Shown here in pieces: positions 19,689-62,529 of a DNA stretch of 64,000 nucleotides. The stretch spans positions 618-64,617 of the forward strand of contig JAJZZM010000024.1 in assembly GCA_021797555.1 (NCBI GenBank). The letters run 5' to 3'. A model generated the notes under the pieces. The model ran no database searches and had not been told where the DNA came from. It saw nothing but the letters and a program-made list of their open reading frames with translations. Made by a program: the position numbers and the translations under genes. Every line of letters starts with the position of its first letter. Within the stretch, counting starts at the first letter, position 1. The stretch is from Thermoplasmata archaeon (GTDB lineage Archaea; Thermoplasmatota; Thermoplasmata; Thermoplasmatales; Thermoplasmataceae).

Positions 19689-20606
19689 ATGAAACAAAGA
19701 TTCATAATAATTATATCTATAATAGTTTCATTATTGTTTGTTATGATGGCATTTTCAGGTCATGTTGATAAGAATAGTAATAATATTATCAATAATAATA
19801 TATCAAACAATGATTATGTAAAAATAGGTAATATTACATTTATGAACAATTTTAATATATCAAATAATGGAATATCATTTAATAATATAAATAAAACAAA
19901 TATTAATAATATAAATAATTATGAAAACAATGATATTAAGAATAATAATATAACATCATATAAATACAGTTATATAAAAACAAATAATACAAACTATTTA
20001 TTGCAATACTATAACAATTCCAATATAAAATATACAATAGCATTCACAGAGAAATTTAAAGATTATAAGGTTGAGATAGGCAATATAATATACAATAACA
20101 ACAATGATAATATTTCATATATCTATGCTAATATTGCACCTATTAATTCATCAAAAATATTATTGGGCAATGAATTTACATTGAATTATAAATCAACATA
20201 TAACAATGAGATAAAAAATTTAATAAACAGTATAGAATTAATATCATTGAATTATATGAATTCCAATAATAATACATTATATAAATTCGGATTAGAATAT
20301 TCATATATAGCATTGGTAATGAATAATATGCTAAAATCAACAAATAATAACATTAAAAATATGGAAATAGATAAAACATTAGGTATAGCAATAGACTGGA
20401 ACTGGAATTGTATAAATTCTGTTCTAGTACTAGCAGGAACAATTGCTGCATGGTTCATAGCGTCTGCACTGTTTGCTGTTGCACCATTAACTGGAGGCAC
20501 AAGTGTATGGATAGGTATATTATTTTTAATTGGCACAGGCTTATCCATCGGTCTTACAGCAGACGCAACATATAATGTGGGCAATGCCTGTTTTGGAGGA
20601 TGGTAA
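19689..20606 (+). CDS. Secreted precursor-like protein with hydrophobic Cys/Gly/Trp C-terminus (candidate archaeocin/effector)
   Basis: I do not recognise a named family. The 305-residue protein starts with a signal peptide (KQRF then IIIISIIVSLLFVMMAF). A long Asn-rich extracellular stretch with many NxS/T sequons runs to about residue 235. The C-terminal ~75 residues are very different: a WNWNC entry, a strongly hydrophobic Gly/Ala segment, TGGTSV, and a YNVGNACFGGW end. The next gene starts right after the stop and encodes a small two-helix membrane protein. A second copy of the C-terminal module with its own partner follows. The layout resembles peptide-toxin precursors with immunity genes, such as sulfolobicin or halocin loci, but homology is not shown. 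An ordinary cell-surface glycoprotein is the alternative. Confidence 0.6.
   Translation: MKQRFIIIISIIVSLLFVMMAFSGHVDKNSNNIINNNISNNDYVKIGNITFMNNFNISNNGISFNNINKTNINNINNYENNDIKNNNITSYKYSYIKTNNTNYLLQYYNNSNIKYTIAFTEKFKDYKVEIGNIIYNNNNDNISYIYANIAPINSSKILLGNEFTLNYKSTYNNEIKNLINSIELISLNYMNSNNNTLYKFGLEYSYIALVMNNMLKSTNNNIKNMEIDKTLGIAIDWNWNCINSVLVLAGTIAAWFIASALFAVAPLTGGTSVWIGILFLIGTGLSIGLTADATYNVGNACFGGW
20211..20405 (+). repeat. Direct repeat copy 1 (within precursor gene)
   Basis: This 195-base segment recurs at 20831-21025 without gaps and with only about eight differences; the first hundred or so bases are identical. Similarity drops abruptly after the codons for the WNW residues, exactly where the hydrophobic C-terminal domain begins. 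Confidence 0.95.
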
Positions 20607-20831
20607 ATGAATAATATTAAAAAGAAAGGTATGGAAAATAATTCGTTAAGAAGAAAATTAAAGGTATTAATAACAATTGCTATGTTTTTATGGATTATAT
20701 TTGGGGTCATAGGGTTATTATATTTATCACTACATATAGATATTCTGCTTTATATATTCTTGATGATATTAATAGTTATTGTATTAATATTTGTATATAT
20801 TATAAAAAATAAGCACAAAATCTTAAATTAA
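20607..20831 (+). CDS. Small two-helix membrane protein (candidate immunity partner)
   Basis: The 74-residue protein has a basic N-terminus (KKKGMENNSLRRKLK) and two hydrophobic helices at about residues 19-42 and 46-66, with a short Lys-rich tail. It starts directly after the stop of the precursor gene, so it is probably translationally coupled. Small membrane proteins beside secreted toxic peptides commonly give self-protection; that role here is inference. No family is recognised. Confidence 0.6.
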   Translation: MNNIKKKGMENNSLRRKLKVLITIAMFLWIIFGVIGLLYLSLHIDILLYIFLMILIVIVLIFVYIIKNKHKILN

Positions 20832-21025
20832 TAAAAAATTTAATAAACAGTATAGAATTAATATCATTGAATTATATGAATTCCAATAATAATACATTAT
20901 ATAAATTCGGATTAGAATATTCATATATAGCATTGGCAATGAATAATATGCTAAAATCAACAAATAATAACATTAAAAACATCGAAATAAATAAAACTTT
21001 AGGTATAGCTATAAACTGGAACTGG
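20831..21025 (+). repeat. Direct repeat copy 2 (start of orphan module)
   Basis: This is the second copy of the 195-base segment at 20211-20405, offset by 620 bases. It begins next to the stop of the small membrane protein gene and has no signal peptide or start region before it. Confidence 0.95.
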
Positions 21026-21509: not shown

Positions 21510-21659
21510 ATGGAAAAAATAAAATATCCTGTATATAATGCGATATTTCTAATATTCTCAATCTCTTATGAATTAATATTATCAATAATTTCAAATTATA
21601 AATTAGGCATAATTCTTGATTTAATAATTTTAATAATGGATTTTATCTTATTGATATGA
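21510..21659 (+). CDS. Small membrane peptide, 49 aa
   Basis: A 49-codon frame begins MEKIKYPVYNAIFLIF and ends FILLI, giving two short hydrophobic segments (about residues 9-24 and 33-48). It follows the 84-residue gene by 21 bases. It stops where the inverted IS256-type remnant begins, so its 3' end may have been cut. It could be a third immunity-like remnant. Low confidence because it is short and AT-rich. Confidence 0.35.
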   Translation: MEKIKYPVYNAIFLIFSISYELILSIISNYKLGIILDLIILIMDFILLI

Positions 21660-21899
21660 TCGTGTACATTATATTGTGTATTTATAAAGGGCACCTCTTA
21701 TTGAACATTTTTTTAATCCCATCATTGCATTTATAATATCCGTTCATCTTCCTGAATATATACTTTAAATTGAATTATATTGATTTCAAATAGAATATCT
21801 TCATTGCAGAATCCTCATCAGGGAATGATGACATTACTTTAATCCTCCTTCTTATCTCCTCATTCATCCTTTCTATTATATTTGTAGATTTAAGTGAAT
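21657..21899 (-). mobile_element. IS256 (mutator)-type transposase 3' remnant, left copy
   Basis: On the minus strand the segment reads STNIIERMNEEIRRRIKVM then SSFPDEDSAMKIFYLKSI, the C-terminal signature of IS256-family transposases. An in-frame stop follows before FNLKYIFRKMNGYY. The outer ~175 bases (21657-21831) recur inverted at 24476-24650, ending in what looks like the element's terminal sequence (GGGCACCTC just inside). Most of the transposase gene is missing, so this is a dead end-fragment. Confidence 0.8.
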
Positions 21900-24475: not shown

Positions 24476-24650
24476 TCATCATTCCCTGATGATGATTCTG
24501 CAATGAAGATATTCTATTTGAAATCAATATAATTCAATTCAAAGTATATATTCAGGAAGATGAACGGATATTATAAATGCAATTATGGGATTAAAAAAAT
24601 GTTCAATAAGAGGTGCCCTTTATAAATACACAATATAATGTACACGATCA
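24476..24650 (+). mobile_element. IS256-type transposase 3' remnant, right inverted copy
   Basis: This segment is the near-perfect inverse of 21657-21831. It encodes SSFPDDDSAMKIFYLKSI followed by the same in-frame stop and the same terminal GAGGTGCCC...CACGATC end. With the left copy it frames 21.66-24.65 kb like the outer ends of a composite element, though neither copy holds a complete transposase. Confidence 0.85.
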
Positions 24651-24771
24651 ATATATTAGGCTAAATTTTGTATTTAATTATATATTATTTTATATTTATA
24701 TAATATTTTAATCTAAAATCATTGGAATAACATTTTATAAAATAATAAATATAATAAATTATCAATTAAAA

Positions 24772-48691: not shown

Positions 48692-49024
48692 TTACGCTTT
48701 AAGCAAATCGCTCAATAAAAGCTTATCCAATAGTGAAGCCTTTATCTTTAACTGCTGTTTCATATATGCATCCATTGCATTAACTTCCTTTGATAATATC
48801 TTATTAAAAATTTCAGAACTTACCTCAACAGTGATATTTGCATTTGTTTTCCCCTCAACGGGCTCTGTTATATGCCCATTTTCGGCCTTAAAATAATACG
48901 AATCTTTTCCATCAAATATAATTTCTATTGTTTTATTTACCCCTGCCAACTTCTTTGAATAATTCGGGTCACTAGCTATTTTATCATTCAATTTCTTTAC
49001 TAATTCATTCAACACTTCTTTCAT
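48692..49024 (-). CDS. SCP2-like sterol/lipid-binding domain protein
   Basis: The 110-residue single-domain protein matches the SCP2 fold pattern: [20 protein letters not shown], then strands [19 protein letters not shown], then [20 protein letters not shown] and a C-terminal helix. SCP2 domains bind hydrophobic ligands such as acyl-CoAs or isoprenoids. It lies between pyrG, which it overlaps by 20 bases, and polC, one base away, so the three genes form an operon. The context gives no clear lipid role. Confidence 0.75.
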
Positions 49025-50612
49025 ATATTTTGCCTCTCTTTTTTTTATATTCCAGTGATTTTTTTATGAAATATAAATGTACCTTTGATGGATTTAACGG
49101 CCTTGATGTAAATTCAGCATGGTATTGTGTAGCAATGTAATTATCATTGTCTTTTAATTCAAGTATTTCCATCCTTATTTTTTCATCATCTGTTCCTGAA
49201 AACACAACTCCGGAATTCTCAAATTTTTTTATATATTCAGGATTTACTTCAAATCTATGTCTGTGCCTCTCATGTATAATATCACTATTATATATTTCAT
49301 GTGCTAATGTATTTTTATTTATTAAAACTTTTTTTGACCCAAGTCTCATTGTTCCTCCCAGGTCCTTTATTTTCTCCTGTTCAGGAAGTAATGCTATAAC
49401 AGGATATTCCGTATTTTCATTGAACTCAGTGCTATTTGCATTCTTTAAATTTAAAACGTTCCTTGCTATTTCAATAACTGAAACCTGGAATCCAAGACAT
49501 ATACCAAGGTAAGGTATTTTATTTTCCCTTGCATATTTTTCTGCAATAATTTTTCCCTCAACACCACGGTAACCAAAGCCTCCAGGAATTAATATACCAT
49601 CAACATCAATTAATTCTTCAATATTATTAATTAGATTATCGGCATTTACCCATTTTATATTTACTGCTATGCCAGTATTGCCTGTTACATGTGAAAATGC
49701 TTCCTTATGGCTTATATATGCATCCTCCATATCCACGTATTTGCCAACTATAGCAACAGTTACCTCTTCCTTTGGTTTTTTTATGTTTTCAACAAAATCC
49801 TTTAATGTATAATTTAATTCATGGTCATCAAAACCAAATAATTCTCTTACATAACCTAATATATTTTGTTTTTCCATTAATTCAGGAACCTGGTAAACAT
49901 TTCTTACATTGTAAACGCTTATTATGCCATTTTCAGAAACATCTGTAAATAATGATATCTTCTTTTTTGATTCCTCATTTAATTTTTTTTCAGATCTGCA
50001 GAATAATATATCAGGCTGTATTCCTATTGCCCTTAATTCCTTAACACTGTGCTGTGTCGGCTTTGTTTTCTGTTCATTCCCTGATTCTGGAACCAATGTA
50101 ACATGGCCAAATATCATATTATTTTCCTTTTCGGATTTCATCTGCCTTAATGCCTCTAAAAACGGCATTGATTCTATATCACCCACTGTTCCACCGACTT
50201 CTATTAAAGCAATATCATAGTCCTTTGCAGCCTTTTTTATTCTGCTTTTTATTTCATTTGTTATATGCGGTATTATCTGGACAGTGCTCCCTAAATAATC
50301 TCCACGCCTTTCCTTTTCTATTACCTCCTTATATATTTTTCCTGTTGTTATATTACTATCTGATGTTAAATCCGTATCCAAAAACCTTTCATAGTTTCCA
50401 AGATCAAGGTCTACTTCACCACCATCATTTAAAACAAATACTTCACCATGCTGGTATGGATTCATCGTGCCCGCATCGTAATTTAAATAAGGGTCTATTT
50501 TAATGTTTGTTACTTTGAAGCCACTGTTTTTTAAAAGATATGATAGGCTTGATGTTATTGTGCCTTTGCCTAATCCGGAAATAACACCTCCGGTAATTAC
50601 TATATAATGCAT
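49005..50612 (-). CDS. pyrG: CTP synthase
   Basis: The 535-residue enzyme aminates UTP to CTP. The synthase domain has [19 protein letters not shown] (residues 5-23) and [17 protein letters not shown]. The glutaminase domain has the nucleophile Cys in [14 protein letters not shown] (about residue 375) and a His-Glu pair in [10 protein letters not shown] (about 506-515), where most bacteria have HPEF. Length is normal. It is first of the pyrG-SCP2-polC chain. Confidence 0.97.
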
Positions 50613-50668
50613 TATCTCATAGTAAAAATTCTTTAATAAATTTTTTGATTTATACTTATTTCACAATA

Positions 50669-51607
50669 TTATACATATTTTAAAGGACATTTTAACTCAC
50701 CAATATTATTAGAAAAATTACCTCTTATCCAGTATTTTAATTTATCTTTATCTATTATTATGGTACCGTCACTGTTAATTTTTCCTATTATATTTTTATC
50801 GTCATATAATGCAACCGTGCATTTTCCTATATAACCATTTGCTCTTATTAGATATTGTGACATTGATGCTGCATAGCACATTTCAATATTATTTATTTTA
50901 TAAATATGTAGGCCAGATTTTTTTATCCTATCCCTTAATTTTTTTAGTAAATAATTAATTTCATTTTGATTATCTATAACTGGTAATTTTTTATCATTGG
51001 TGCCACCAAGTCTGGATAGTTCACGAATAAATATTTTAAATCTATTATCATTACCTATATCTAAAGATAATCTATCTATAAAATTATATATACTCTGATA
51101 ATTATTTTTATTAAGATGTAACCTTATGACAATATCTGAATTTATGTTGCTTTTATGTAAATTTAAAATATTATTATAAATAATATCAAAAGTATCTGTT
51201 TTTTCTCTTGTTATTCTAAATTTATTATGATTATCTTTATCTCCATCAAATGATATTTGAAACCATCTAACATAAAGTTCATATAATTCCTTAAATTTTT
51301 TTATTGTTAATAAAGAACCGTTGGTTGTCATAGAAGATGTTAATTTAAAATTATATCTTATTGAGAGATATTTTGAATATTCCATTATATCTTTAATAAC
51401 ATCATACGCTAACATTGGCTCTCCGCCAAACCAGTTTATCTCTAAATTTTTTAATGTTTTTGACCTTGCCAGTATTAAATTTTTTATTCCCTCTATAACC
51501 TTATCATCCATTTTTTTAATTTTAAAATTTTCATAGCAATATACACATCTAAAATTACATTCTTCAGTAGGTAATATATCTAATCTTAAATTTCTGTTGT
51601 ATATCAT
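50669..51607 (-). CDS. Radical SAM peptide maturase with short SPASM/Twitch-like tail
   Basis: From the ATG at 51607 the protein has about 312 residues; a TTG at 51637 would add ten residues and overlap the peptide gene. The radical SAM cluster motif is CNFRCVYCY (Cys 17, 21, 24), followed by NWFGGEPMLAYDV. The C-terminus has CYAASMSQYLIRANGYIGKC, then TVALYDDKNIIGKINSDGT, and ends ELKCPLKYV. This matches the start of SPASM domains in thioether-forming maturases. It stops at the first Cys of the usual final Cys cluster, so one auxiliary cluster may be missing. It lies 20 bases downstream of a Cys-rich 40-residue peptide gene, its probable substrate. Confidence 0.85.
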   Translation of the reverse strand: MIYNRNLRLDILPTEECNFRCVYCYENFKIKKMDDKVIEGIKNLILARSKTLKNLEINWFGGEPMLAYDVIKDIMEYSKYLSIRYNFKLTSSMTTNGSLLTIKKFKELYELYVRWFQISFDGDKDNHNKFRITREKTDTFDIIYNNILNLHKSNINSDIVIRLHLNKNNYQSIYNFIDRLSLDIGNDNRFKIFIRELSRLGGTNDKKLPVIDNQNEINYLLKKLRDRIKKSGLHIYKINNIEMCYAASMSQYLIRANGYIGKCTVALYDDKNIIGKINSDGTIIIDKDKLKYWIRGNFSNNIGELKCPLKYV

Positions 51608-51627
51608 AATATCATTAAACTGGAAAT

Positions 51628-51750
51628 TTACATGCAACTTATATTAATACAACCACATCCACCCAGCATTTTCATTATTTTATGGCCCTCATCTATTTCA
51701 TTTATAGTTTTTATAACTCCATAATTATCTATTTCAATATTATCTATCAT
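51628..51750 (-). CDS. Candidate RiPP precursor peptide 1 (40 aa)
   Basis: This unannotated 40-codon gene begins MIDNIEIDNYGVIKTINEID and ends with a Cys-rich tail GGCGCINISCM. The acidic N-terminal part looks like a leader, and the last ~11 residues, with three Cys, look like a core. The stop is 20 bases from the maturase ATG. The leader start is almost identical to that of the peptide gene at 53102, and both lie beside an MFS gene in the same divergent arrangement. The Cys could form thioether bonds made by the radical SAM enzyme. Cleavage after the GG at residues 30-31 is possible. Confidence 0.75.
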   Translation of the reverse strand: MIDNIEIDNYGVIKTINEIDEGHKIMKMLGGCGCINISCM

Positions 51751-51796
51751 ATTAAACTTAAGGAAATATATATATATAATTTTCTATTATGGTCCG
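51751..51796. promoter_or_regulatory. Shared divergent promoter, cassette 1
   Basis: The 46-base space between the peptide and transporter ATGs holds TTAAACTTAAGG followed by an alternating AT tract usable as a TATA box in both directions. AAGGAAA before the tract fits a BRE for the transporter gene. The same block, with a slightly longer AT tract, recurs at 53234-53280. Confidence 0.65.
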
Positions 51797-52987
51797 ATGT
51801 TGAATAACTATAAAATTATGTATTTTTATTCATATATATCAAACCTAATGGCCTCTCCATTGGATATAATATTTCTATGGATAATTATAATAAAAACAGA
51901 TTCAATACTGTTTGCTGGCTTGGGTTTAACTTTTTTATTTTTACCAACGTCATTATCATTTTTTACTGGCTATTTAACAGATAATATAAAAAATAAAAAA
52001 ACATTATTAATATTTATAAATTTTTTAAGAATTCTAACTGCAATATTTATTATATTTGATCTTATAAATTTTAAATTTGTGCATTTTATTGTACTCCTAA
52101 TTTTATTTTTAATATTTGGTTTTTTTAATACATTTACAAATAATATTTTTCGGTCAATTGAAAAGTATACTGTTGATGAAAACAAATTAAATAAATATTT
52201 TAAAATTATTCATATATTATATTTTGCTGGGTCTATATCAGGGCTATTAATCTCTGGTATTCTTTTGTCTGTTAATTACAATTTTGCAATTATATTTATA
52301 ATTATTGCTTTATTTGTTCAAATATTATTAATAAAATTAATTGATACAAAAAACATAGATTTTAATAAAAACAAACAATACAAATCAAAAACAAACGATT
52401 TAATTAATTCTATTTTATATATTAAAAATCATAAGTTGCTTCTGGATATTATAATAATAGGAGTAATTTCTGATTTTATTGCATCCATGCTTGAACCGGT
52501 ATTAACGTATATAACACATGATATATTAAAAATAAATGCATTTTTCCTAACCTTATTTGCTGTTTTTATTGTTTTAGGCTCAATAACAGGAACATTATTT
52601 GCAGGAAAAATTAAGGGCAAGGTGTATAAATATTATTTAATCATAATGTTTTTGCTTCCAGTATTTTATTATTTTATTTATATTGTTTCAGATAATTTAT
52701 ATTTCATTTTTATTGTTCTTTTTATTTTAGGATTATTATCATCATTTTTGGCCTTATTTCATAGTATACTGTACTTTAAAAATATAGATAGGGAAAATTC
52801 AGGTAAAATATATGGATTTAACAGTTCGCTTAATGGAATTGTGCAGCCTTTTTCTGGCGTAATAATAGGATTTATAATATCATTTTATTTATTAAAAATA
52901 GGCATAGACTTTATGGTTATATTATTATTTATAAATTTCTTTATTTTATTATTTATTTTAAAAGATATGAAAAATGCATCCATATAA
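51797..52987 (+). CDS. MFS transporter, candidate RiPP exporter 1
   Basis: This 396-residue protein is very hydrophobic, with about 12 helices in two halves. The first loop reads GYLTDNIKNKK and the end has GIVQPFSGVIIGFIISFYLL. It resembles drug-efflux-type MFS proteins. It is divergent from precursor 1 across a 46-base promoter. It is clearly paralogous to the protein at 53281 (same MLNNYK start, LFHSIL-FK-ID and QPFSGVIIGFI segments). Export of the modified peptide, or self-resistance to it, is inferred from position. Confidence 0.8.
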   Translation: MLNNYKIMYFYSYISNLMASPLDIIFLWIIIIKTDSILFAGLGLTFLFLPTSLSFFTGYLTDNIKNKKTLLIFINFLRILTAIFIIFDLINFKFVHFIVLLILFLIFGFFNTFTNNIFRSIEKYTVDENKLNKYFKIIHILYFAGSISGLLISGILLSVNYNFAIIFIIIALFVQILLIKLIDTKNIDFNKNKQYKSKTNDLINSILYIKNHKLLLDIIIIGVISDFIASMLEPVLTYITHDILKINAFFLTLFAVFIVLGSITGTLFAGKIKGKVYKYYLIIMFLLPVFYYFIYIVSDNLYFIFIVLFILGLLSSFLALFHSILYFKNIDRENSGKIYGFNSSLNGIVQPFSGVIIGFIISFYLLKIGIDFMVILLFINFFILLFILKDMKNASI

Positions 52988-53101
52988 ATAATTATTATTC
53001 ATATTTTTATTATAATAGACATAAAGTAATAAAATATTATAATAATAATTTTATGCGATTATAAATTTATACTAAAAAATTATAATTAAAAATTTATAAA
53101 C

Positions 53102-53233
53102 TTAGCATGGGACAAGAAGCTCTGGACCACAGCCTAAATTTGCCTCTCTTGGTTTTATATGTTCATCTGGATTAACAAAACCTTCTGGCACAGTTATTAT
53201 TCCATAATTATCTATTTCAATATTCTCTATCAT
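53102..53233 (-). CDS. Candidate RiPP precursor peptide 2 (43 aa)
   Basis: This 43-codon gene begins MIENIEIDNYGIITVPEGFV and ends ANLGCGPELLVPC. Its first 13 residues match precursor 1 at all but two positions, whereas the rest differs, including a core-like tail with two Cys separated by seven residues. A longer frame reaches 53329, but the start at 53233 matches precursor 1 exactly and avoids overlap with the transporter. No second maturase is nearby, so the enzyme at 50669 may modify both peptides. Confidence 0.75.
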   Translation of the reverse strand: MIENIEIDNYGIITVPEGFVNPDEHIKPREANLGCGPELLVPC

Positions 53234-53280
53234 ATTAAACTTAAGGAAATATATATATATATATTTTCTATCATGGTTCG
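53234..53280. promoter_or_regulatory. Shared divergent promoter, cassette 2
   Basis: This 47-base spacer is nearly identical to 51751-51796: TTAAACTTAAGG, an AT tract, TTTTCTAT, then an ATGGT-CGATGTTGAA-AAC-type transporter start. The AT tract is longer here. The conservation continues into the first codons of both genes, which indicates recent cassette duplication. Confidence 0.65.
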
Positions 53281-54477
53281 ATGTTGAACAACTATAAAAA
53301 GATATATTTAAGTATATTGGCCTCGTCACTTTTATATGGCAAGGACCTTATATTTATATGGATAATATTAGAAAAAACAGACTCAATACTGTTAGCAGGA
53401 ATTGCACTTACAATATTTTATATACCCTCATTTTTATCTGTTATTATTGGTCCTATTGTAGATAGTTTTAAAAATAAAAAAAATATTTTAATAATTTCAA
53501 ATACAATGCATTTTATAATAATATTACTTATAATTATAATACTGTTAAAATCAGGATTTATAATTTATATAATCTTTTTATTTTTATTATTCTTATACAG
53601 CTTTGTAACAAATTTTTCTAATTTGAGTTTTATGTCCCTTCAAAAACATATAGTTAATAGCACTGATTCAAAAAAATACTTTAAAAATTTGCATAGTGTT
53701 TATATGCTATCATCAATTTTTGGATTATTAATTACAGGATTATTATTAACATTAAATTATAACTTTGCATTAATATTTATGGCATCTATTCTTATAATAT
53801 CGACTGTTATTTCATCATTAATTGATATTAAAAATATCAACTTTGAATCAAAAAAACTTGATTTCCATGGATTGAGAAGCATAAGGTACGCATTTAATTA
53901 TCTAAAAAATAATAGTGTGCTTTTAGATTTACAGGTGCTTTCAATTATAAACGGCCTTGGTGTTGCAATGATTGTTCCTGCAGTGGCATATATTTCATAT
54001 AATATACTAAATATATCTGCATTTTTATTGACAACATTTTTTATTGCAGGTTTAATAGGTTCATTCATAGGAACTTTAATTTCATCTAAAATTCATACTA
54101 ATGTAAAAGGAAGAATATACAAATATTATTTAATAATAGCATTTATCTTCCCGTTTGCATATTATAATATATATTTATTCTATAATTATTTATATATAAT
54201 TTACATTATTTTCTTCATAACCGGTTTAATGGAATCTATAATATCATTATTTCATAGCATCTTGAATTTTAAATATATAGATAAAAATATATCAGCAAGT
54301 GTCTATGGATTAAAGCAGACGCTCAATGGTATAACACAGCCTTTTTCTGGTGTAATAATTGGATTTATTATAACATTTTATTTATTAAAATCAGCATTTT
54401 TATTTATATTTATAATATTCTTTACTGATTTTATTATTTTATTATTTTTAAAGAGTATAAAAAATGCGGAAATTTAA
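53281..54477 (+). CDS. MFS transporter, candidate RiPP exporter 2
   Basis: This 398-residue, ~12-helix paralogue of the transporter at 51797 starts MLNNYKKIYLSILASSLLYG and has the loop GPIVDSFKNKKN. Its C-terminal ~75 codons and 3' flank recur as a broken copy at 57290-57599. It is divergent from precursor 2, mirroring cassette 1. Sequence divergence from exporter 1 is much greater than in the promoter/leader block, which fits matching each transporter to a different peptide. Substrate is inferred. Confidence 0.8.
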   Translation: MLNNYKKIYLSILASSLLYGKDLIFIWIILEKTDSILLAGIALTIFYIPSFLSVIIGPIVDSFKNKKNILIISNTMHFIIILLIIIILLKSGFIIYIIFLFLLFLYSFVTNFSNLSFMSLQKHIVNSTDSKKYFKNLHSVYMLSSIFGLLITGLLLTLNYNFALIFMASILIISTVISSLIDIKNINFESKKLDFHGLRSIRYAFNYLKNNSVLLDLQVLSIINGLGVAMIVPAVAYISYNILNISAFLLTTFFIAGLIGSFIGTLISSKIHTNVKGRIYKYYLIIAFIFPFAYYNIYLFYNYLYIIYIIFFITGLMESIISLFHSILNFKYIDKNISASVYGLKQTLNGITQPFSGVIIGFIITFYLLKSAFLFIFIIFFTDFIILLFLKSIKNAEI

Positions 54478-54559
54478 TTTATATAATAAATTTTTTAATT
54501 AAGCAAAAATTATATACCAACAATAAAAACATAGGCTATAAAATATATTATAAAAAATA
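54243..54559 (+). repeat. Direct repeat A1: 3' end and flank of exporter 2
   Basis: About 310 bases covering the last part of the exporter gene and ~80 bases beyond it recur at 57290-57599. There is a short internal deletion near the stop codon and a few substitutions. The intervening 2.7 kb holds transposase relics and an ATPase gene. Confidence 0.93.
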
Positions 54560-54639
54560 AAGTAAGATGCATAATTTATTTTATTAAAAATTTTAATTTA
54601 ATATAAATTCCCTGAAATAACATTTACATCAATATATAA

Positions 54640-55130
54640 AAGAATAAGGAAGGTCATTCCAGAAATACAGAATGGCAACAATGGTGTATTGGCAGCAATA
54701 GATTCATAAGATTTAAAATAGCATTAATGGGAGATTATTTAGGCAATAAATGGCATAGAAAAAGAAAGGTATGATAAAATTGCATGCTGTTATAAACATA
54801 AAGAATTTTAATATTATAGATCATTCAATAACAGATGAGTATACAAATGATGCCATGGAGGGAATAAACATAATAAGAAGAATAAAGAATAGAATAAATA
54901 AATTATATAGTGATAAAGGTATTATTACAAAATTATTTGCAATGAGTTAAAAAATAAAGCATTAATACCTGTTAGAAGGAATGCAATTACATTATCCAGA
55001 GTATCTTCTTATAGATCTAAAATTACCAGATTTATTAAAAGGTTCAATGAAGGATTATGGAAGAATAACAGATATTGATTGAGGTAGAATATTACAATTA
55101 TTTCATGATACAATAAAGATTATAAATATA
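54640..55130 (+). pseudogene. Decayed DDE transposase (IS5/IS4-like)
   Basis: Across shifting frames the strand encodes WHRKRK, then KLHAVINIKNFNIIDHSITD, then NDAMEGINIIRRIKNRINKL, then YSDKG. Further on it encodes LIPVRRNAIT and RFNEGLWKNNRY. These fit a DDE transposase of the IS5/IS4 type, with the second catalytic Asp in YSDKG. At least three frameshifts or stops interrupt it, and no terminal repeats are recognised. It ends just before the ATPase gene. Confidence 0.7.
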
Positions 55131-55148
55131 ATCATTATAAACATAATC

Positions 55149-56594
55149 ATGGAGATATTTTTCGATAGGGATAACGAATTAAAAAAGCTAATAACAGATA
55201 TTGAAAAACATAGGTCATTGATAGTATTATATGGTAACAGGAGAGTAGGAAAAACTGAACTTATAAAGAAAACAATAAATAAAATAGGTGGCATATATTT
55301 ATATGTAGATAACACAAAAAGTTCAAATTTATTGTTACAGGAATTTTCCGATACAATCAGAAGATATTTCAACACATCACTTTTTAATCCGCCTGACTGG
55401 GATTTGTTTATTAAAGGTTTATTTGAACTTTCAAGAAACAGACAAACAGTGGTTTATTTTGATGAATTTCAGAGATTTGAAGACATCAACAGATCTGTAT
55501 TTACGGCACTCCAAAAGAACGTTGATTTATACATCGACACATCAAGACTGTCAATTGTCTGTTCAGGCTCCTCAGTTGGACTAATAAAGAAAATATTTAT
55601 GGACAGAAATTTGCCCTTATACAAGAGAGCAACCTCTATAATGCATTTAAAAAATTTTGATTTTGTAACATCCTATAAATATTTGAAAATCAGTATCTAT
55701 GATGCAATCAAGGTATATTCAATATTCGGTGGTTCTCCACAATTTTACAAGTATTTTCGTTTGAACAGCATAAAAAACGTAGAGGGGATGATAAAGAGTA
55801 TTTTTTTGAGCAGTAACAGCATATACGTGTTTGAGCCCAGAGACTTCATTACTGAAGAATTCGGTAGGAGGTCACAAACATACTTCTCCATACTTTACTC
55901 TATTTCAAGCGGAAACACTAAAGTATCAGATATAGCAAATATTACGGATGTAAAAGCCACCTCAATGCAGCCTTATCTATTTGAAATGAAAGATATATTG
56001 AATTTGATAACATATGAACTACCTGTAACACATAAAAATAATAAAATTGATAAAAAAGGAATCTATAAACTAACCGATAATTATATGGAATTCTGGTTCA
56101 GCCAGTTTTATCCAAATATAAATCAATTTGAGCTCGGTAATTATAGTGGAGTAGTTAATTCATTAATACAGTCTGTCGATATGATAGTCCCGCACAAATT
56201 TGAAGAGATATGCAAAGAATTAATGATCTATATGAACAATGAAAAAGCGGATATTTTGCCTTTTAATATACAAAAAATTGGAAAATGGTGGGGCAGAAAC
56301 ACAAATAATAATCGTGATAGAGATCAGGAAGAAATAGATATTATCGCCTTGAATGAGGAGAAAAAGGCTATAATGTTTGGCGAATGCAAATGGACACACA
56401 GGCCTGTATGCGTTTCTGTGTATGAAGATTTAAAGAGAAAAGCTATGAGTGTAGAGTGGAATAATAAGGATAGAAATGATTATTTTATATTATTCAGCAA
56501 ATCCGGTTTTACAGATAAAATGAGAGACATTGCAGAAAAAGATAATGTATTATTATTCGATCTGGATAAAATTGAAGGTATACTTAAAAAATGA
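55149..56594 (+). CDS. Archaeal AAA ATPase with DUF234 domain
   Basis: In this 481-residue protein, residues 1-200 form a P-loop ATPase (Walker A YGNRRVGKTE at about 28-37, Walker B VVYFDEFQRF at about 99-108). A winged-helix segment follows (GNTKVSDIANITDVKATSMQ), then a C-terminal DUF234 nuclease-like domain with RDQEEIDIIAL and MFGECKWTHRP, a PD-(D/E)xK-like Asp/Glu-x-Lys pattern. Such ATPases are numerous in archaeal variable regions; their role is unknown. Its base composition is less AT-rich than the peptide genes on either side, and it is bracketed by transposase relics, supporting transfer. Confidence 0.85.
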   Translation: MEIFFDRDNELKKLITDIEKHRSLIVLYGNRRVGKTELIKKTINKIGGIYLYVDNTKSSNLLLQEFSDTIRRYFNTSLFNPPDWDLFIKGLFELSRNRQTVVYFDEFQRFEDINRSVFTALQKNVDLYIDTSRLSIVCSGSSVGLIKKIFMDRNLPLYKRATSIMHLKNFDFVTSYKYLKISIYDAIKVYSIFGGSPQFYKYFRLNSIKNVEGMIKSIFLSSNSIYVFEPRDFITEEFGRRSQTYFSILYSISSGNTKVSDIANITDVKATSMQPYLFEMKDILNLITYELPVTHKNNKIDKKGIYKLTDNYMEFWFSQFYPNINQFELGNYSGVVNSLIQSVDMIVPHKFEEICKELMIYMNNEKADILPFNIQKIGKWWGRNTNNNRDRDQEEIDIIALNEEKKAIMFGECKWTHRPVCVSVYEDLKRKAMSVEWNNKDRNDYFILFSKSGFTDKMRDIAEKDNVLLFDLDKIEGILKK

Positions 56595-56729
56595 AATAGA
56601 CAGAATATTATTTATATGATCCATGTTCTGAATTCCAGTATAATGGATGAATTTCCCAAGATTGTTATAAATTAAATGTATTTACCAGGAAGATTCATTA
56701 GAACTTTAATATATTTATACTCAACTCTA

Positions 56730-57002
56730 TTAACATTTACCCTTACCATCCTTAAATAATTCATTATTCATTTCAAACATTTCATGGCCATTGACTGTTC
56801 TTGATTCATAATAAATAGAATTCCTTTTTATTCTGGAAACAAATAATATATTTTTATCTGCAAGCAACCCGAATCTGTCTAAATTATAGTACCATAAATC
56901 AAATACCAGTATTGATAAGTAAAGCAGTTTATTATCAATATCGTTTATAAATATTATCAAATAAAGATGAATCATTGACATTTGCAGATGATATATATAC
57001 AT
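56730..57002 (-). pseudogene. Transposase remnant (IS4-like DDE)
   Basis: The minus-strand frame reads LLYLSILVFDLWYYNLDRFG, then LLADKNILFVSRIKRNSIYY, resembling the DxGYY-x-LxRF-LL-DxNIxFVSRIKxNSxY block of IS4-type transposases. The catalytic-Asp segment is preserved but the remainder is missing, and the flanks hold only fragments. It is probably the relic of an element that accompanied the ATPase gene. Confidence 0.6.
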
Positions 57003-57289
57003 TCAGTTGAATAGTAAATGGAAAATACTATTGATAAAATGTATTTTCATTCCATTAGATTCTCTTTTGTAATTACCGGAACCATTCATCAATATTTAAT
57101 GAATATTGAATCTACTGCAAATAAACGCATGTATTTGATGTATACCCTATAGCCATGTGCTTTTAATGTATGGTTTTAACAATTTATAAAATAATTTAAT
57201 GGATGGAATGTATGATTTATTGTTATTGCGTTTAGAGAGTCAGGATTGCTGATTCCATTATCGATGGATGTATCAGTTAGATCATGCAC

Positions 57290-57599
57290 ATCATTATTTC
57301 ATAGCATCTTGAATTTTAAATATATAGATAAAAATATATCAGCAAGTGTCTATGGATTAAAGCAGACGCTCAATGGTATAACACAGCCTTTTTCTGGTGT
57401 AATAATTGGATTTATTATAACATTTTATTTATTAAAATCAGCATTTTTATTTATATTTATAATATTCTTTATGGATTTTATTATTTTTAAGAGGTATAAA
57501 AAATGCGGAAATTTAATTTATATAATAAATTTTTTAATTAAGCAAAAATTATATGGCTAACAATAAAAACATAGGCTATAAAATATATTATAAAAAATA
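57290..57599 (+). pseudogene. Broken copy of exporter 2 C-terminus (direct repeat A2)
   Basis: The segment repeats 54243-54559, encoding FHSILNFKYIDKNISASVYG through QPFSGVIIGFIITFYLL. It has no start region or first ten helices. A short deletion before the stop shifts the frame, so the end differs from FLKSIKNAEI. It cannot be a transporter alone. The last ~60 bases of the repeat also encode the C-terminus of the membrane protein read from the opposite strand. Confidence 0.9.
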
Positions 57600-58023
57600 T
57601 ATAAATATAAATACTTACCTTATGCGCTCTTTTCTTCCATGATTGTAGTGTATATTCATTTTTATTGATATGACTTATATCTATAACATTGATAATAGAT
57701 GAGATTTCAATCAAAGACCAAAAAAATAAAAGTGCATAAAACAATATTGAAAAACCAGTTCCATATGATATTGACCATAAATTTACTGAAATATACAATG
57801 AAAGAATAAAAATAAAGTATATAAAAGGTCTGAAATCTTTAACCCTCATTATATTATTATTAAAATATATATATTTTTTTAATATATATCTAAAATACCA
57901 CATATCTGAAACGCCAATAAGCGTTGATAAGGAAAAAATTCCAAGTAAACCAGTAAATAAAATTGTTACCGGAATAATTATAATTAACATTATTAAAATC
58001 ATAGCTTTTATTAAATTGTTCAA
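57538..58023 (-). CDS. Four-helix membrane protein, partner of secreted precursor 58028
   Basis: I do not recognise a family. The likely start is TTG at 58023, giving 161 residues, or ATG at 58002, giving 154; a longer frame to 58203 overlaps the upstream gene and lacks sense. Four hydrophobic helices are visible, the first being MILIMLIIIIPVTILF and the last IYIFFIIYFIAYVFIV. It starts four bases after the stop of the secreted-protein gene, so the two are coupled. The pairing parallels the secreted-protein/small-membrane-protein pairs at 19.7-21.5 kb. An immunity or processing role is inferred. Confidence 0.6.
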   Translation of the reverse strand: MNNLIKAMILIMLIIIIPVTILFTGLLGIFSLSTLIGVSDMWYFRYILKKYIYFNNNIMRVKDFRPFIYFIFILSLYISVNLWSISYGTGFSILFYALLFFWSLIEISSIINVIDISHINKNEYTLQSWKKRAHKVSIYIYIFFIIYFIAYVFIVSHIIFA

Positions 58024-58027
58024 AATA

Positions 58028-58900
58028 TCACCATGGTGGTTCCTGATATGGATTCCATACACTATTATGCGGAAAATATTCTTCATAAAATTCTGGTGAT
58101 GTTGGTGAATAATTACGTCCGCCTGCAATTGCAACAGGTATAAATGTTCCACTGCTGTGTGAATTTGCTGAACCTGTAAATGCACCCTCTTCCCCGTATA
58201 CACCTATGCTATAGAAATTCCACCATTGTGTACCCCAGCTTGCACCTATATCGAAATAAACTGTAGGGTCATGATTTTCATATGCATATACATCCATTGC
58301 AACATAATTAGCAGCCAGTACAGCCACTACTACAGGTACTACGGTTGATGCAATAGATGCTTCGGCATATGCTGGAGCCGATGACACAGTTACTGAAACA
58401 CCTGTGGCAACAACCTCACCAAAAACTGCCATTATTTCAGTTATATCTGTAGTTGTTATTATTGGTATTTTTGTAACAGATAATACTGCAGCATAATTTT
58501 TAGGAAATTTATAATAAACATTAGAGCAGCCTAATGGAACTTTACCTGCATTATTATTTGGTATTATTGTAATATTCATGTATATGTTATTACCTGATGA
58601 AAATACATTTACTTCTCCGAAATTTCCGCTTTTTATTATGCTTTGATTTTTTACCATGTTATTATTTAAATTAAACAATATATTTATATGTAATATATTA
58701 TTAGTTTTATTTAAACTATAATTATATCTATCTAATTTTAAAGGATTAAATGTACTTTTAATTACATTTTTATTTGATGAAACCTGTGGTAAATTTTTAT
58801 TTATTGCATTATTATGAGAAACATTATCTGATAATGGAACAAAAGAAACCATTAAGAATATTGATATCATTATAACACCCATTATTATTTTTCTATTCAT
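58028..58900 (-). CDS. Secreted precursor-like protein 2 (signal peptide, hydrophobic and aromatic C-terminus)
   Basis: No named family is recognised. The 290-residue protein has a signal peptide (MNRK then IIMGVIMISIFLMVSFVPL) and an Asn-rich middle with several NxT/S sites. An Ala/Val/Thr hydrophobic stretch runs from about residue 152 to 206 (EIMAVFGEVVATGVSVTVSS, later VVPVVVAVLAANYVAMDVYA). A Gly/Tyr/Trp-rich C-terminus then ends NPYQEPPW. The layout matches the 305-residue protein at 19689, though the sequences differ. A coupled membrane-protein gene follows directly. It could be a bacteriocin-like precursor or a surface protein; length and context favour neither decisively. Confidence 0.55.
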   Translation of the reverse strand: MNRKIIMGVIMISIFLMVSFVPLSDNVSHNNAINKNLPQVSSNKNVIKSTFNPLKLDRYNYSLNKTNNILHINILFNLNNNMVKNQSIIKSGNFGEVNVFSSGNNIYMNITIIPNNNAGKVPLGCSNVYYKFPKNYAAVLSVTKIPIITTTDITEIMAVFGEVVATGVSVTVSSAPAYAEASIASTVVPVVVAVLAANYVAMDVYAYENHDPTVYFDIGASWGTQWWNFYSIGVYGEEGAFTGSANSHSSGTFIPVAIAGGRNYSPTSPEFYEEYFPHNSVWNPYQEPPW

Positions 58901-58969
58901 AACAATATTAATACTTTGATATATATATCGATAATAATATTAATAAATAATTTATTAATAAATTATATA

Positions 58970-59010
58970 ACTATAGCCTTAGATCCGGGTTCAAATCCCG
59001 GCATATAATA
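58970..59010 (+). other. tRNA 3'-end fragment (T arm), possible att remnant
   Basis: The sequence CCGGGTTCAAATCCCGG at 58985-59001 is a perfect T stem-loop. It is preceded by a short variable-region-like AGAT and followed by an AT-rich, decayed acceptor strand. No D arm, anticodon arm or 5' acceptor lies upstream, so this is a fragment, not a gene. tRNA 3' ends are classic integration sites, and it lies exactly between the accessory genes and the next stable gene. Confidence 0.65.
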
Positions 59011-59035
59011 ATCAAAGCTCAACCATGAAAATATT

Positions 59036-60454
59036 TTATTCATCGGTGGAAGTTATTGTTGTAGTTTTTGTCTCATTTGTATTTATGTCTATATCATCTT
59101 TTTCAGGTGTTAATCTTTTACCCTTTGTTTCAGGTCCTATATACTGACCAACACCAACTATTACTGCACCTATCATCAGTAACACTGCTGTTGAAAACCA
59201 TATATTCGTTGGCGTATCTATAGATGAAAATAAATATTTGTGCATTAATGGCACGTATATAGAAAACCACCCTCCTATAAATATTCCTGATGAATAGCCA
59301 AAACCAACGCCTGATGATCTCATAGACGTTTTAAACCTTTCAGATAAATATACCGGTATTATTCCCCACGGTGCCTGTGTTATAAAGCCAACGGTTAAAA
59401 CTGATGCATATGTTAGCATAACATTTCCTGTGCTTGCGCCATAAAATATACCATAAAACGCCGGAATCGCAAGCACCAGGGTCAACGGAACCCAGATTAA
59501 TAATAATTTTCTTCTTCCAACCTTTTGTGAGAGTGCACCAAAGAATATTGCACCTATAAATGCAGAAACCAAAGAATATGTATATATTGTTGTTGCAGAT
59601 CCAAATGATAAAATGCTTGGTTTTGATTCAAGTATTGTTGGAACAAATGCAAATAATGAATATGCAAAGAAGAACATTCCGGTCATAAATATCATGACCT
59701 GAATGAAATCCTTCCTATACTTTTTTCTGAAAAGATCTGTAAATGGGTTTTTTCTTATTTTATTCTCCTTTTTAAGATTGTTAAATGCTGGTGTATCGTT
59801 CATTGTTAATCTTACTATCAATGCTATGAAAACAGGTATTAATGTTGTTAGAAATAAATATCTCCAGGCATATGCCTTTATCGCCGCTATGCCAAAATAG
59901 CCTGTAAATGATGCAACTATGGCCGCTGCAAGTAATGCACCAAATGAAAAACCTCCCTGAACTATGCCGCTTATTAAACCCCTGAACCTTAATGGCGTCC
60001 ACTCCATTACAAATGGATGGCCCGCAGCATATTCACCGCCAGCGAAGGTTCCTACACCCATTCTTATTAAAACAAACAAAATAAATGCTATTATACCAAC
60101 ACTTGCATATGTTGGCAAAGCCGATGTTAATGTGCTTGCAATTCCCAAACCAAGTATTGTTATAATAAGATCCTTTTTTCTTCCTATTTTATCGCCCATA
60201 TGGCCAAAAATTGCGGAACCTAGGGGCCTGAAAATAATTGTTAATGAATATGCAAATATAATTGTAAATGTTCCAAGCAGGGCTGTTGATGGCGGCAATA
60301 AAACAGCAGCAAGTACAGGTGCTGTTGTTAATATCATTGTTAAATCAAATGCATCAAGCAAAAATCCAAAAAACTGTGATGTTGTTGCCTTAGCCGATTC
60401 TGCACCGAAATGCTCAACCCTGCCTGTTAATCTCTGTTTTTCGTTAACATCCAT
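59036..60454 (-). CDS. MFS transporter (metabolite:H+ symporter type)
   Basis: The 472-residue, ~12-helix carrier has the first loop [14 protein letters not shown] (about residues 80-93), then [20 protein letters not shown] and EWTPLRFRG, typical of the metabolite-proton symporter branch. [12 protein letters not shown] is the second-half repeat. The N-terminus is soluble and charged and the C-terminal tail is Thr/Asp-rich. Substrate is unassigned. It ends next to the tRNA fragment, with its promoter in the AT-rich gap facing tsr3. Confidence 0.87.
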
Positions 60455-60628
60455 GTAAACGTATATATTTATAGTATTTAATATTATCTATAATAGTATA
60501 TAATACTATTATACAATACATATTTTTATATATATTTTATAGTAATTATTTTTAATAATTTTTTATATATTAATATTATTAATTTTAAATATTTTTTTAT
60601 ATTTATTTATTATTACATAAAAATATAA

Positions 60629-61123
60629 ATGATAAAAGTTTTTTATGTATATTTAAGGCAGGATGACCCTAAAAAATCAACAATGAAGAAACTAGAAAGA
60701 TACGGCCTTGCAAAAAAAATACCCTTAATAAGCATATATAATAAAATATTTTTAACGCCATATGTAGATAATTATATACTAAATAAGGATAAATTTTTAT
60801 ATAATGAAAAGGGCATTGCAGTAATAGACGGTTCATGGAATTTAATAAACACAATAGAAAATATTAAAAATAAAAATGCAAGGAAGATACCATTATTATT
60901 GCCTGTTAATCCTGTAAACTATGGAAAGCCAGGAAAATTATCATCACTTGAGGCAATAGCGGCATCACTTTTTATAATGGGATATAATGATCTTGCAGAG
61001 GAAATAATATCAAAATATTCATGGTCACAGAATTTTATAAAAACAAATATAAATCCATTAAATGATTACATAAAATGTAACAGCAATGATGAATGTATAG
61101 AAATGGAAAAATCTTATTTTTGA
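60629..61123 (+). CDS. tsr3: Tsr3-like rRNA aminocarboxypropyltransferase
   Basis: The 164-residue protein matches Tsr3/DUF367, which transfers the aminocarboxypropyl group of SAM to a hypermodified uridine in 16S/18S rRNA. Marks are YLRQDDPKKSTMKKLERYGL near the N-terminus, AVIDGSWN, LLLPVNPVNYGKPGKLSSLE (about residues 90-109) and AIAASLFIMGY. Length is typical. Its end overlaps the convergent PP-loop gene by ten bases. Confidence 0.92.
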   Translation: MIKVFYVYLRQDDPKKSTMKKLERYGLAKKIPLISIYNKIFLTPYVDNYILNKDKFLYNEKGIAVIDGSWNLINTIENIKNKNARKIPLLLPVNPVNYGKPGKLSSLEAIAASLFIMGYNDLAEEIISKYSWSQNFIKTNINPLNDYIKCNSNDECIEMEKSYF

Positions 61124-62529
61124 ATTTTAATCCATTTATTATTTTTTAATTCATAAATTCCATTTGAGTATTTATTAAAAATATTATATATATTATCTCT
61201 GAATATTTCTGGAACAATTGAAAATGGCTTTTTTTCATATGGCAATATATGTATCCCGTTTATATGATCACATTCCTGGCAATCGCCATTTATAAAGCCC
61301 AATTTCATTTCTGTGTAATTTATTTCATCTGGATCGAGCCTTAGCCTTGAATGCATTACCCTTCTCTTTAAAAGCCTTACATCGTCGCTGCTGTAAAGTA
61401 TTTCCTCTGGATTTCCATTATTTGCCTCTATAAATAATAATATGCCTATGCATTTTGAGCATTTCCCACACGGATATATTTTTCCATCCTTTTCATGGCA
61501 TGAATGGCATGACCTCTGGTTTAAATATAAATCATGATATCTATTAATTAAAATTTTTTCCTCCAATGATCCGGTTACAGGATAAACTATGGAATAAACA
61601 TATGAATTTATTTTTTTATTTTTAAAGTATTCTGAAACCATATTATTAAAATCATATGTCTGGTCAAATATGCCATAATAATACTTTAATCCATGGAAAT
61701 CAGTCATTTCCCTTGGATCATCAAATTCATCGCCCATTATTATATTGCCTATTTTATATTTTAATAATAACGGTATTAACAGGAAAATATAAATTGGAAA
61801 TATAAAAACCTGAATAGGATAATCATCAGATCTTATATCTATATTTTCAGTTTTTATTATTTTTATATGCTTTAATGTTTCATGATAAAATCTATCAAGA
61901 TTTGACCAGACCTTTTTAACATTTTTAAAATTTTTATTGTAATAATCATATGCTGTTTTTGCAGTAATCCAGTGAGAACCTGATTCCTCAAAATAAAAGG
62001 AATAATTATCATCATTATTATTTATTTCATTGAATATGCCATAGGCAAGAAGACTTTCCTTTCCGCTGGAAGACATTATTATAACCTTTTTATTATCTAT
62101 ATTGTTTTTATAATCATCGTTATAATTATATTTGCATACAAGCTCTGTTATTCCATTAGCATTGTATTCGGTTATATCATCTTCATTTGGTATGTATTCG
62201 TCTTTTATAAAATCATATCTTCTGTTTATTATTTTATTTATGAAAACTTCGTGTGCATTTATTTTCATAAATTTTTTAATTATATCCTTATCATTTTCAG
62301 AAACAGGATAATTAAGCGTTAATTTTCTTGCAAAATATGTAAAATTTATTACAGGCATTGTTAAAATAAGACCTGCCATATTTTCATTAACATTGATTTC
62401 ATCATTGTATGTAAAAATTAACTTAAAATTATAGTCATCCATTTTTATATTTCCTGTTATGTGATTTCTCTCTATTTTATCTATACTTACCTCAATGTTT
62501 CCGAATGAAATTATTTTATCGATATACAT
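61114..62529 (-). CDS. PP-loop ATPase-type protein, MurL-like
   Basis: This 471-residue protein has a variant PP-loop (IMSSSGKESLLAYG, about residues 151-164), so it probably adenylates a substrate. GDEFDDPREM, YYGIFDQTYDFNNMVSEYF, and a Cys cluster CHSC...CGKCSKCIG (about 350-370) recall MurL-type glutamate epimerases of bacterial peptidoglycan synthesis, which also use ATP. This resemblance is from pattern only. The start overlaps the stop of the DUF1611 gene by one base. With that neighbour, an amino-acid epimerisation or modification role is a reasonable guess; archaea of this group lack peptidoglycan. Confidence 0.6.
   Translation of the reverse strand: MYIDKIISFGNIEVSIDKIERNHITGNIKMDDYNFKLIFTYNDEINVNENMAGLILTMPVINFTYFARKLTLNYPVSENDKDIIKKFMKINAHEVFINKIINRRYDFIKDEYIPNEDDITEYNANGITELVCKYNYNDDYKNNIDNKKVIIMSSSGKESLLAYGIFNEINNNDDNYSFYFEESGSHWITAKTAYDYYNKNFKNVKKVWSNLDRFYHETLKHIKIIKTENIDIRSDDYPIQVFIFPIYIFLLIPLLLKYKIGNIIMGDEFDDPREMTDFHGLKYYYGIFDQTYDFNNMVSEYFKNKKINSYVYSIVYPVTGSLEEKILINRYHDLYLNQRSCHSCHEKDGKIYPCGKCSKCIGILLFIEANNGNPEEILYSSDDVRLLKRRVMHSRLRLDPDEINYTEMKLGFINGDCQECDHINGIHILPYEKKPFSIVPEIFRDNIYNIFNKYSNGIYELKNNKWIKIQK

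Follow-up and report, generated by a model that had tools for sequence, protein, structure and literature searches.

On contig JAJZZM010000024.1 of GenBank assembly GCA_021797555.1, positions 618 to 64,617 (64,000 nucleotides, hereafter the window), a Thermoplasmata archaeon carries what is very likely a locus for ribosomally synthesized and post-translationally modified peptides (RiPPs) on a mobile island. In this locus one radical S-adenosylmethionine (SAM) enzyme, rSAM, would modify two precursor peptides, pep1 and pep2, and each peptide would have its own major facilitator superfamily (MFS) exporter, MFS1 or MFS2, through a shared promoter design. The hallmark of a RiPP cluster is present: a precursor with a conserved leader and a variable core adjoins a modifying enzyme. 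The logic is that of known RiPP systems; the arrangement is unusual, in that an archaeal peptide/exporter cassette has no maturase and has a leader-promoter block nearly identical to that of its neighbor. The assembly (G000) comprises 1.94 Mb in 24 contigs, and the genes for the DNA polymerase II large subunit DP2 and CTP synthase, which adjoin the locus, mark the window as archaeal. The features of the two cassettes are as follows.

50669-51607, minus strand: rSAM, predicted peptide maturase, 312 amino acids, ATG start; an in-frame TTG extends the open reading frame (ORF) to 51637
51628-51750, minus strand: pep1, predicted 40-amino-acid precursor, leader IEIDNYGVI, core end CGCINISCM
51711-51815: near-identical block, cassette 1 copy
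51751-51796: putative bidirectional promoter 1, 46 bases, symmetric (AT)n TATA center, start codons 47 bases apart
51797-52987, plus strand: MFS1, 396 amino acids (PF07690, E 5.3e-21)
53102-53233, minus strand: pep2, predicted 43-amino-acid precursor, leader IEIDNYGII, core end CGPELLVPC
53194-53299: near-identical block, cassette 2 copy
53234-53280: putative bidirectional promoter 2, 47 bases, start codons 48 bases apart
53281-54477, plus strand: MFS2, 398 amino acids, sharing 46% identity with MFS1 and 51% with the MFS of a sister-species cassette (G065)

Each cassette is thus a head-to-head pair, pep1(-)/MFS1(+) and pep2(-)/MFS2(+). Only 20 bases separate the stop codon of pep1 from the start of rSAM, and pep2 is without a maturase gene of its own.

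The assignment of the small ORFs as precursors draws on related loci in a sample with one genome per species. An order-level protein search with rSAM (E <= 1e-3, 117 genomes) gave matches in 84 genomes, nearly all of them weak and involving radical SAM proteins of other kinds. Six places in three genomes hold a close relative (E < 1e-80, 46-54% identity): three contigs of G049, one of G050 and two of G063, one of the latter with an in-frame TAG. Profile searches of 400 genomes of the class and 389 of the phylum, tallies outside of which G050 stands, yielded no further equally close relative; a partial match is present in G491 (E 8.5e-37), and a search of genome contigs with rSAM returned one distant Lachnospiraceae match only. 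Upstream DNA is present at five of the six places (L038 begins inside rSAM), and at all five it holds an ORF of 34-37 amino acids with a leader like MEIDEYGRI, so that, with the window included, a same-leader precursor lies directly upstream of rSAM in 6/6 archaeal loci. An MFS gene follows rSAM directly at all six related loci. When 87 overlapping loci (457 kb) were scanned for the leader motif together with a C-terminal Cys, only these precursors and pep1/pep2 were recovered. When aligned, all seven archaeal precursors share D, G and two Cys.

The same pairing extends to bacteria. Among 72,556 plasmid records searched by tblastn, 13 match rSAM at E <= 1e-20 with 30-40% identity, and in 12 the match spans 80% or more of the query. 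Seven of these 13 loci were opened, and in six there are one or two same-leader ORFs just upstream of rSAM, with the leaders ISLDESGKV, ITIDPKGEI, ISFDAHGRA, VELDDAGRI, LSVDAAGRV and, on the plasmid of Streptomyces sp. NBC_00122 (L120), both ITVDEQGRV and ISVDAEGRV. Five viral or phage matches, three from a phage collection, were also found; the one that was read, a viral-collection contig (L114), carries ITVDDNGRV. All eight of these bacterial/viral precursors contain [ILVFM]x[ILVFM]DxxG. In the Deinococcus locus (L121) the enzyme is longer, and a small ORF upstream, with the leader LELTDDGKV, is on the other strand. On the Streptomyces plasmid a single rSAM gene is preceded by two different precursors that share the leader motif; judged from gene order, this looks like a bacterial counterpart of the arrangement in which two cores have one maturase. 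The predicted enzyme/leader family is one that no curated model names, and by these matches it occurs in both archaea and bacteria. To our knowledge, few radical SAM RiPPs have been described from archaea. A search of an open-licence literature library found no radical SAM RiPP for Thermoplasmata and nothing on the rSAM/leader family, which is likewise not described in the accessible portion of a paper on Ferroplasma gene clusters (PMC12350378).

The enzyme itself has a radical SAM domain (PF04055, E 1.4e-18). Its best NCBIfam model is TIGR04463, a family of radical SAM/SPASM maturases (E 8.9e-39, profile positions 71-371); unlike these, rSAM lacks the N-terminal 70 profile positions and the full SPASM Cys set, and it scores 133 bits where the cut-off is 525. 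The top Protein Data Bank match, by both sequence profile (2.2e-21) and fold (3.9e-11), is the thioether-forming maturase CteB (5why/5wgg), although the match begins at CteB residue 103 and the N-terminal part of CteB is absent from rSAM. In 13 of 13 enzymes compared (7 archaeal, 6 bacterial), C17, C21 and C24 of the CxxxCxxC motif are invariant, as are C244, C263 and C307, and a CYA..KCTV..C motif is also common to all. Since the last three are the only invariant Cys beyond the radical SAM domain, the set expected of a SPASM domain with two auxiliary clusters is not there; a MoaA-like three-Cys cluster would be possible, as the consulted part of PMC9012708 describes. The three Cys may also be ligands of a Twitch-type auxiliary cluster, for which three or four closely placed Cys are expected in the C-terminal domain. 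The AlphaFold2 model has a mean pLDDT of 67.9, with an unusable C-terminal domain.

Other radical SAM genes were seen in the same group. One decayed cluster (L045, G050:C158) consists of an rSAM fragment with stops that runs into an MFS gene. A second, longer family of about 408 amino acids, CefB/geopeptide-like, is present at G000:C23:28348-29205 (L041), G063:C28 (L042), G065:C6 (L043) and G041:C167 (L044); its frame is open in three genomes and interrupted by one in-frame TGA in G000, to which the window belongs. This gene was considered as an enzyme serving the locus and rejected, since it belongs to the other family, carries the in-frame TGA and has a neighborhood of its own.

The cores suggest a candidate chemistry. 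The pattern C-x2-3-N-x2-4-C stands at the end of six of the seven archaeal precursors, followed in pep1 by an extra Met; the Asn-Cys spacing is N-x2-C in four (NISC, NYAC, NFIC, NGHC), with N-x3-C and N-x4-C once each. None of 20,000 shuffles reaches four, a figure that gives no clean probability because the motif was chosen after seeing the data and the sequences are homologous. Six of the seven archaeal precursors, all but pep1 with its Cys-Met, have Cys as the last residue, which among the eight bacterial/viral precursors is seen only in L123. In NxxcA, as given in the excerpt of PMC8326336 that was available, a C-beta thioether joins Cys23 to Asn20. The locus resembles NxxcA and other ranthipeptides (RiPPs with C-beta and C-gamma thioethers) in its short precursor, its radical SAM maturase, the N-x-x-C of four of the seven archaeal cores and a match to the PapB model (E 2.3e-31); it differs in scoring 109 bits where the cut-off of that model is 340 and in having only three invariant post-domain Cys, and here the comparison is with genes only. 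The most likely modification would be a thioether that links the last Cys to the Asn of N-x2-4-C; in pep2 another residue would take part.

A related chemistry combines a radical SAM enzyme with a flavoprotein. According to the portion of PMC11162475 at hand, LanD/EpiD-type flavoproteins decarboxylate a C-terminal Cys, and a flavoprotein together with a radical SAM enzyme gives AviCamCys. Compared by description, some related archaeal clusters are like the AviCamCys systems (LanD/HFCD plus radical SAM) in pairing the maturase with an EpiD/MrsD-like flavoprotein, and their cores end in Cys with an Asn 3-5 residues before it; the window is unlike them in having no flavoprotein, a pep1 that ends in CM and a pep2 without Asn. 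The clearest such flavoprotein, 193 amino acids long, follows the MFS gene in G049 C59 (L035:2472-3053) and among solved structures best matches 7cfu (3.7e-29), MrsD (9.8e-29) and EpiD (2.4e-20) ahead of CoaBC (2.7e-17). Its motifs, which we take to be those named PASANT and PxMNxxMW, were read by eye only. Among the six related loci the gene is intact there, 5'-truncated in L039 (G063 C10), a short remnant in L038 (G050 C161; E 6e-4) and not significant in L036 (G049 C72; E 0.15), and none was found in L037 or L040. Because the window has no flavoprotein gene, its product, if any, would be the thioether form without decarboxylation. Replacement of the LanD-type flavoprotein by a UbiX/CoaBC-type gene was rejected: the PF02441 genes of the genome, of 186 and 400 amino acids, are by length UbiX-like and CoaBC-like. 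In G048 (L076:7939-8523) an EpiD/MrsD-like flavoprotein stands alone, with no maturase or precursor nearby; its identity to the G049 copy is 60%.

Several points weigh against reading the locus as one enzyme serving two RiPP precursors. The position held by Asn in the other archaeal cores is Leu in pep2, and pep1 ends in Cys-Met; consequently, one chemistry need not serve both. None of the curated maturase models reaches its cut-off (TIGR04463 133/525, PapB 109/340, Clo7bot 117/600 bits). Residues 239-277 and 285-312 of the rSAM model, exactly the region in which auxiliary clusters are expected, have a pLDDT below 50. There is no room for an N-terminal RiPP recognition element, because rSAM starts about 16 residues before CxxxCxxC; a separate protein of this kind was not sought. 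A LanD-type flavoprotein is absent from the window, and the only two PF02441 genes of the genome are on other contigs. No leader peptidase is found among the island ORFs scanned. Finally, no family model matches pep1 or pep2, and the Pfam/NCBIfam models cover no tested precursor convincingly.

Conservation and divergence are sharply partitioned between the two cassettes. In the block formed by 51711-51815 and 53194-53299, which contains the leader codons, the 46/47-base divergent promoter and the first transporter codons, 99 of 105 aligned bases are the same, with one 1-base indel in the AT tract; the promoters agree at 44 of 46 bases, and their 31-base core occurs exactly twice in the window, where 0 occurrences are expected. 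Past codon 8, the best 105-base segment of the aligned MFS genes reaches 79%, and at the MFS rate of 0.608 the probability of at least 99 matches in 105 is 2.6e-15. Over leader codons 1-11, 10 of 11 residues are identical and all nine same-residue non-Met codons are identical as well; for MFS1 and MFS2 the count of identical same-residue codons is 111 of 177. By the Nei-Gojobori method, leader codons 1-13 have a silent-site divergence (dS) of 0.17 and an amino-acid-changing divergence (dN) of 0.06, and for the core dN is about 1.2 in an alignment that is unreliable, the tails not aligning. The edges of the block are abrupt, near leader codon 13 and MFS codon 7. A DNA search of 10 genomes of the genus found only the two window copies of the promoter/leader block; the other matches, at E 2e-4 or weaker, are like AT-rich background. 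Across 394 codons the transporters are 45.7% identical in amino acids and 60.8% in DNA, with dS 1.25 (near saturation), dN 0.44 and dN/dS about 0.36; by these rates, MFS1 and MFS2 are an old paralogous pair under purifying selection, and for this reason the idea that the transporters were selected to differ is not supported.

This base-by-base alignment and rate comparison, with leader and promoter kept and core and MFS diverged, agrees with a sequence-only reading of the stretch, which had described almost identical blocks over leader, promoter and transporter start (its coordinates are right), strongly different peptide tails and transporters, and an AT tract of varying length, the variation amounting to one base. 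Divergence spread evenly over the cassette is excluded. The same reading held that selection for new products would leave such a pattern, and here it stands in part. The combination of a kept leader with a changed core is real, and it recurs in an independent pair of paralogues, discussed below; on the other side, no dN/dS above 1 was found, the transporters are old and under purifying selection, the pep2 core type is not fresh, its LLVPC ending being present in the decayed copies of two sister species, and the near-identity at silent and non-coding sites exceeds what selection on a leader peptide needs.

The independent pair consists of the clusters G049 C59 and C56, in which rSAM is 84% and MFS 79% identical. 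Here dN is 0.079 for rSAM, 0.118 for MFS, 0.071 for leader codons 1-18 and 0.603 for core codons 19-34, a value that no 16-codon segment reaches in rSAM (0/299) or MFS (0/389). The silent sites of the leader are saturated, with 10 changes at 10 sites, and the residues are kept; the codon counts indicate conservation of this leader at the level of the protein alone. By local dS the core has a dN/dS below 1 (0.603 vs 1.5); against the rSAM dS of 0.51 the ratio is about 1.2, which is not counted as proof of positive selection. Because the silent sites of the G049 leader are saturated, a second process, either gene conversion or a DNA-level constraint on the bidirectional promoter, is needed in the window.

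The promoter design is compact. Between the start codons, which are separated by 47/48 bases, lies an alternating AT core, and nothing resembling a Shine-Dalgarno sequence is seen; in the related operons a GAGGTG stretch precedes the precursor in 3/5. The section of PMC6640164 that was available describes bidirectional BRE-TATA-BRE promoters in Pyrococcus furiosus, one with 49 bp between start sites. The window promoters are like these in their symmetric TATA and in the roughly 48 bp between the two starts, and unlike them in that there one side gives an antisense RNA, whereas in the window genes start on both sides and two such arrangements are present. No clean TATA peak emerged when the DNA upstream of 49 ORFs was surveyed, so it is the geometry of the two promoters alone that points to leaderless transcription; that geometry would fit two leaderless transcripts made from one TATA box.

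In the mechanism that we propose, rSAM, encoded in line with pep1, would recognize the common leader IEIDNYG.. and modify the Cys-containing C-terminal cores of pep1 and, in trans, of pep2. Each peptide would be exported by its paired MFS, or the host would be protected from it through that MFS. The symmetric 46/47-base TATA promoter would be read both ways into leaderless transcripts, and the shared block would be kept near-identical by gene conversion and/or by constraint on the promoter DNA. A bolder version, which we hold only tentatively and think rather doubtful, is that of a plug-in system, in which movable mini-cassettes of precursor plus exporter add new cores and borrow one maturase, the block being homogenized for readability and co-expression.

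The setting of the locus bears on its history, and the relevant features are these.

50662-60602: species-specific island, about 9.9 kb, between pyrG (CTP synthase) and a ribosome-biogenesis gene at 60629-61123 (blastn)
54771-54950, plus strand: decayed DDE transposase fragment (PF13612, E 8e-4, below cut-off)
56730-57002, minus strand: decayed DDE transposase fragment (PF01609, E 6e-4, below cut-off)
57290-57554, plus strand, within 57246-57560: broken extra copy of the 3' end of MFS2 and of the DNA after it (198 nt at 99%, 80 nt at 96%)
13801-13808: empty site; here G065 and G063 have a decayed cassette of pep2-type peptide + MFS (blastn, 80-84% on both sides)

In the sister species G065 (L111) and G063 (L112), the sequences corresponding to 48901-50661 and 60603-61133 of the window are about 100 bases apart, at 80-85% identity. 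The island has a GC fraction of 0.259 vs 0.289 to its left, and five of 217 overlapping ten-kilobase segments are lower. The broken MFS2 copy sits behind a decayed transposase and may be what is left of a third cassette or the trace of a local duplication. The island also contains a 290-amino-acid ORF at 58028-58900 with a signal-peptide-like start and no Pfam match. Another MFS gene is found at the pyrG/ribosome-biogenesis junction of G061 (L113). From such comparisons the junction looks like an insertion hot spot, with cargo that differs between G000 and G061 and is missing from G065/G063.

At the ETF locus, G065 and G063 have about 1.3 kb of extra DNA (L099/L100), and the counterpart in the window, 12.0-15.2 kb, is empty. 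The extra DNA is a head-to-head cassette of an MFS gene and a decayed precursor that ends in P-stop-LLVPC, like the CGPELLVPC of pep2; of the two MFS genes, that of G065 is open and that of G063 broken. To the G065 MFS, MFS2 is 50.8% and MFS1 39.6% identical. Because this pep2-like cassette is present in G065/G063 and MFS2 is nearer to its MFS, the pep2-type cassette predates the present arrangement, and the ETF-locus cassette also means that a maturase-less mini-cassette has occurred at more than one place. Cassette 2 was considered as a vertical orthologue of the ETF-locus cassette and rejected, as the flanks are 80-84% alike and the MFS DNA only 62%. The persistence of the G065 MFS beyond its dead peptide, a single case, would fit a self-protection role.

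How the block came to be so alike admits several explanations. That it is the footprint of gene conversion (or recombination) which took place recently between two old cassettes, in which case its identity says little about selection, seems to us an even bet: the MFS dS of 1.25 against a leader dS of 0.17 and a promoter matching at 44/46 positions, the abrupt edges, and the nearby 99% duplication of MFS2 DNA, which shows local recombination, all favor it, but the block coincides with leader, TATA and start codons, which conversion alone need not do, and with only two copies the boundaries of a tract are untestable. Constraint at the DNA level, by which a bidirectional promoter and a leaderless 5' coding region would be fixed without conversion, has a lesser though substantial chance of being correct. 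The closely spaced start codons around a symmetric AT core, comparable to the 49 bp of P. furiosus in the part of PMC6640164 consulted, argue for such constraint; against it are the saturated silent sites of the G049 leader, the decayed G065/G063 promoter regions, which are only 75-81% alike to the window copies (gapped local alignment), and the silent sites 20-40 bases inside pep, which are not expected to be promoter.

The literal form of the sequence-only reading, a recent tandem duplication of the cassette with core and transporter diverging fast under positive selection, is improbable. Although the cassettes are side by side and core dN is far above leader dN, the silent sites of MFS1/MFS2 are near saturation at a dN/dS of 0.36, MFS2 is nearer to the sister-species cassette (51%) than to MFS1 (46%), and pep2-type core endings survive in sister species. 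It is more improbable still, to the point that we give it hardly any weight, that the small ORFs next to the radical SAM gene are no precursors at all, being either chance ORFs or genes for unrelated small proteins. They are short (34-43 amino acids), lie in AT-rich DNA and have no family model in the case of pep1/pep2, but their leader appears only at these places in the 87 loci scanned, its dN is low while its dS is saturated, and the same motif stands upstream of the bacterial relatives.

As a RiPP locus with one maturase and two cassettes, the island provides a compact, testable unit of two natural cores, one leader, one enzyme and one promoter design. With it one could test directly whether the leader guides enzyme sharing, compare Asn with non-Asn acceptors and ask whether archaeal mobile islands carry interchangeable cassettes. 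Through its presence on bacterial plasmids, the leader/enzyme pair also marks out a family at present annotated as 'hypothetical protein' beside 'radical SAM protein'. Outside the peptide locus, the window also contains a direct repeat of 195 nt at 96% (20211-20405 / 20831-21025) and an inverted repeat of 190 nt at 95% (21642-21831 / 24476-24665).

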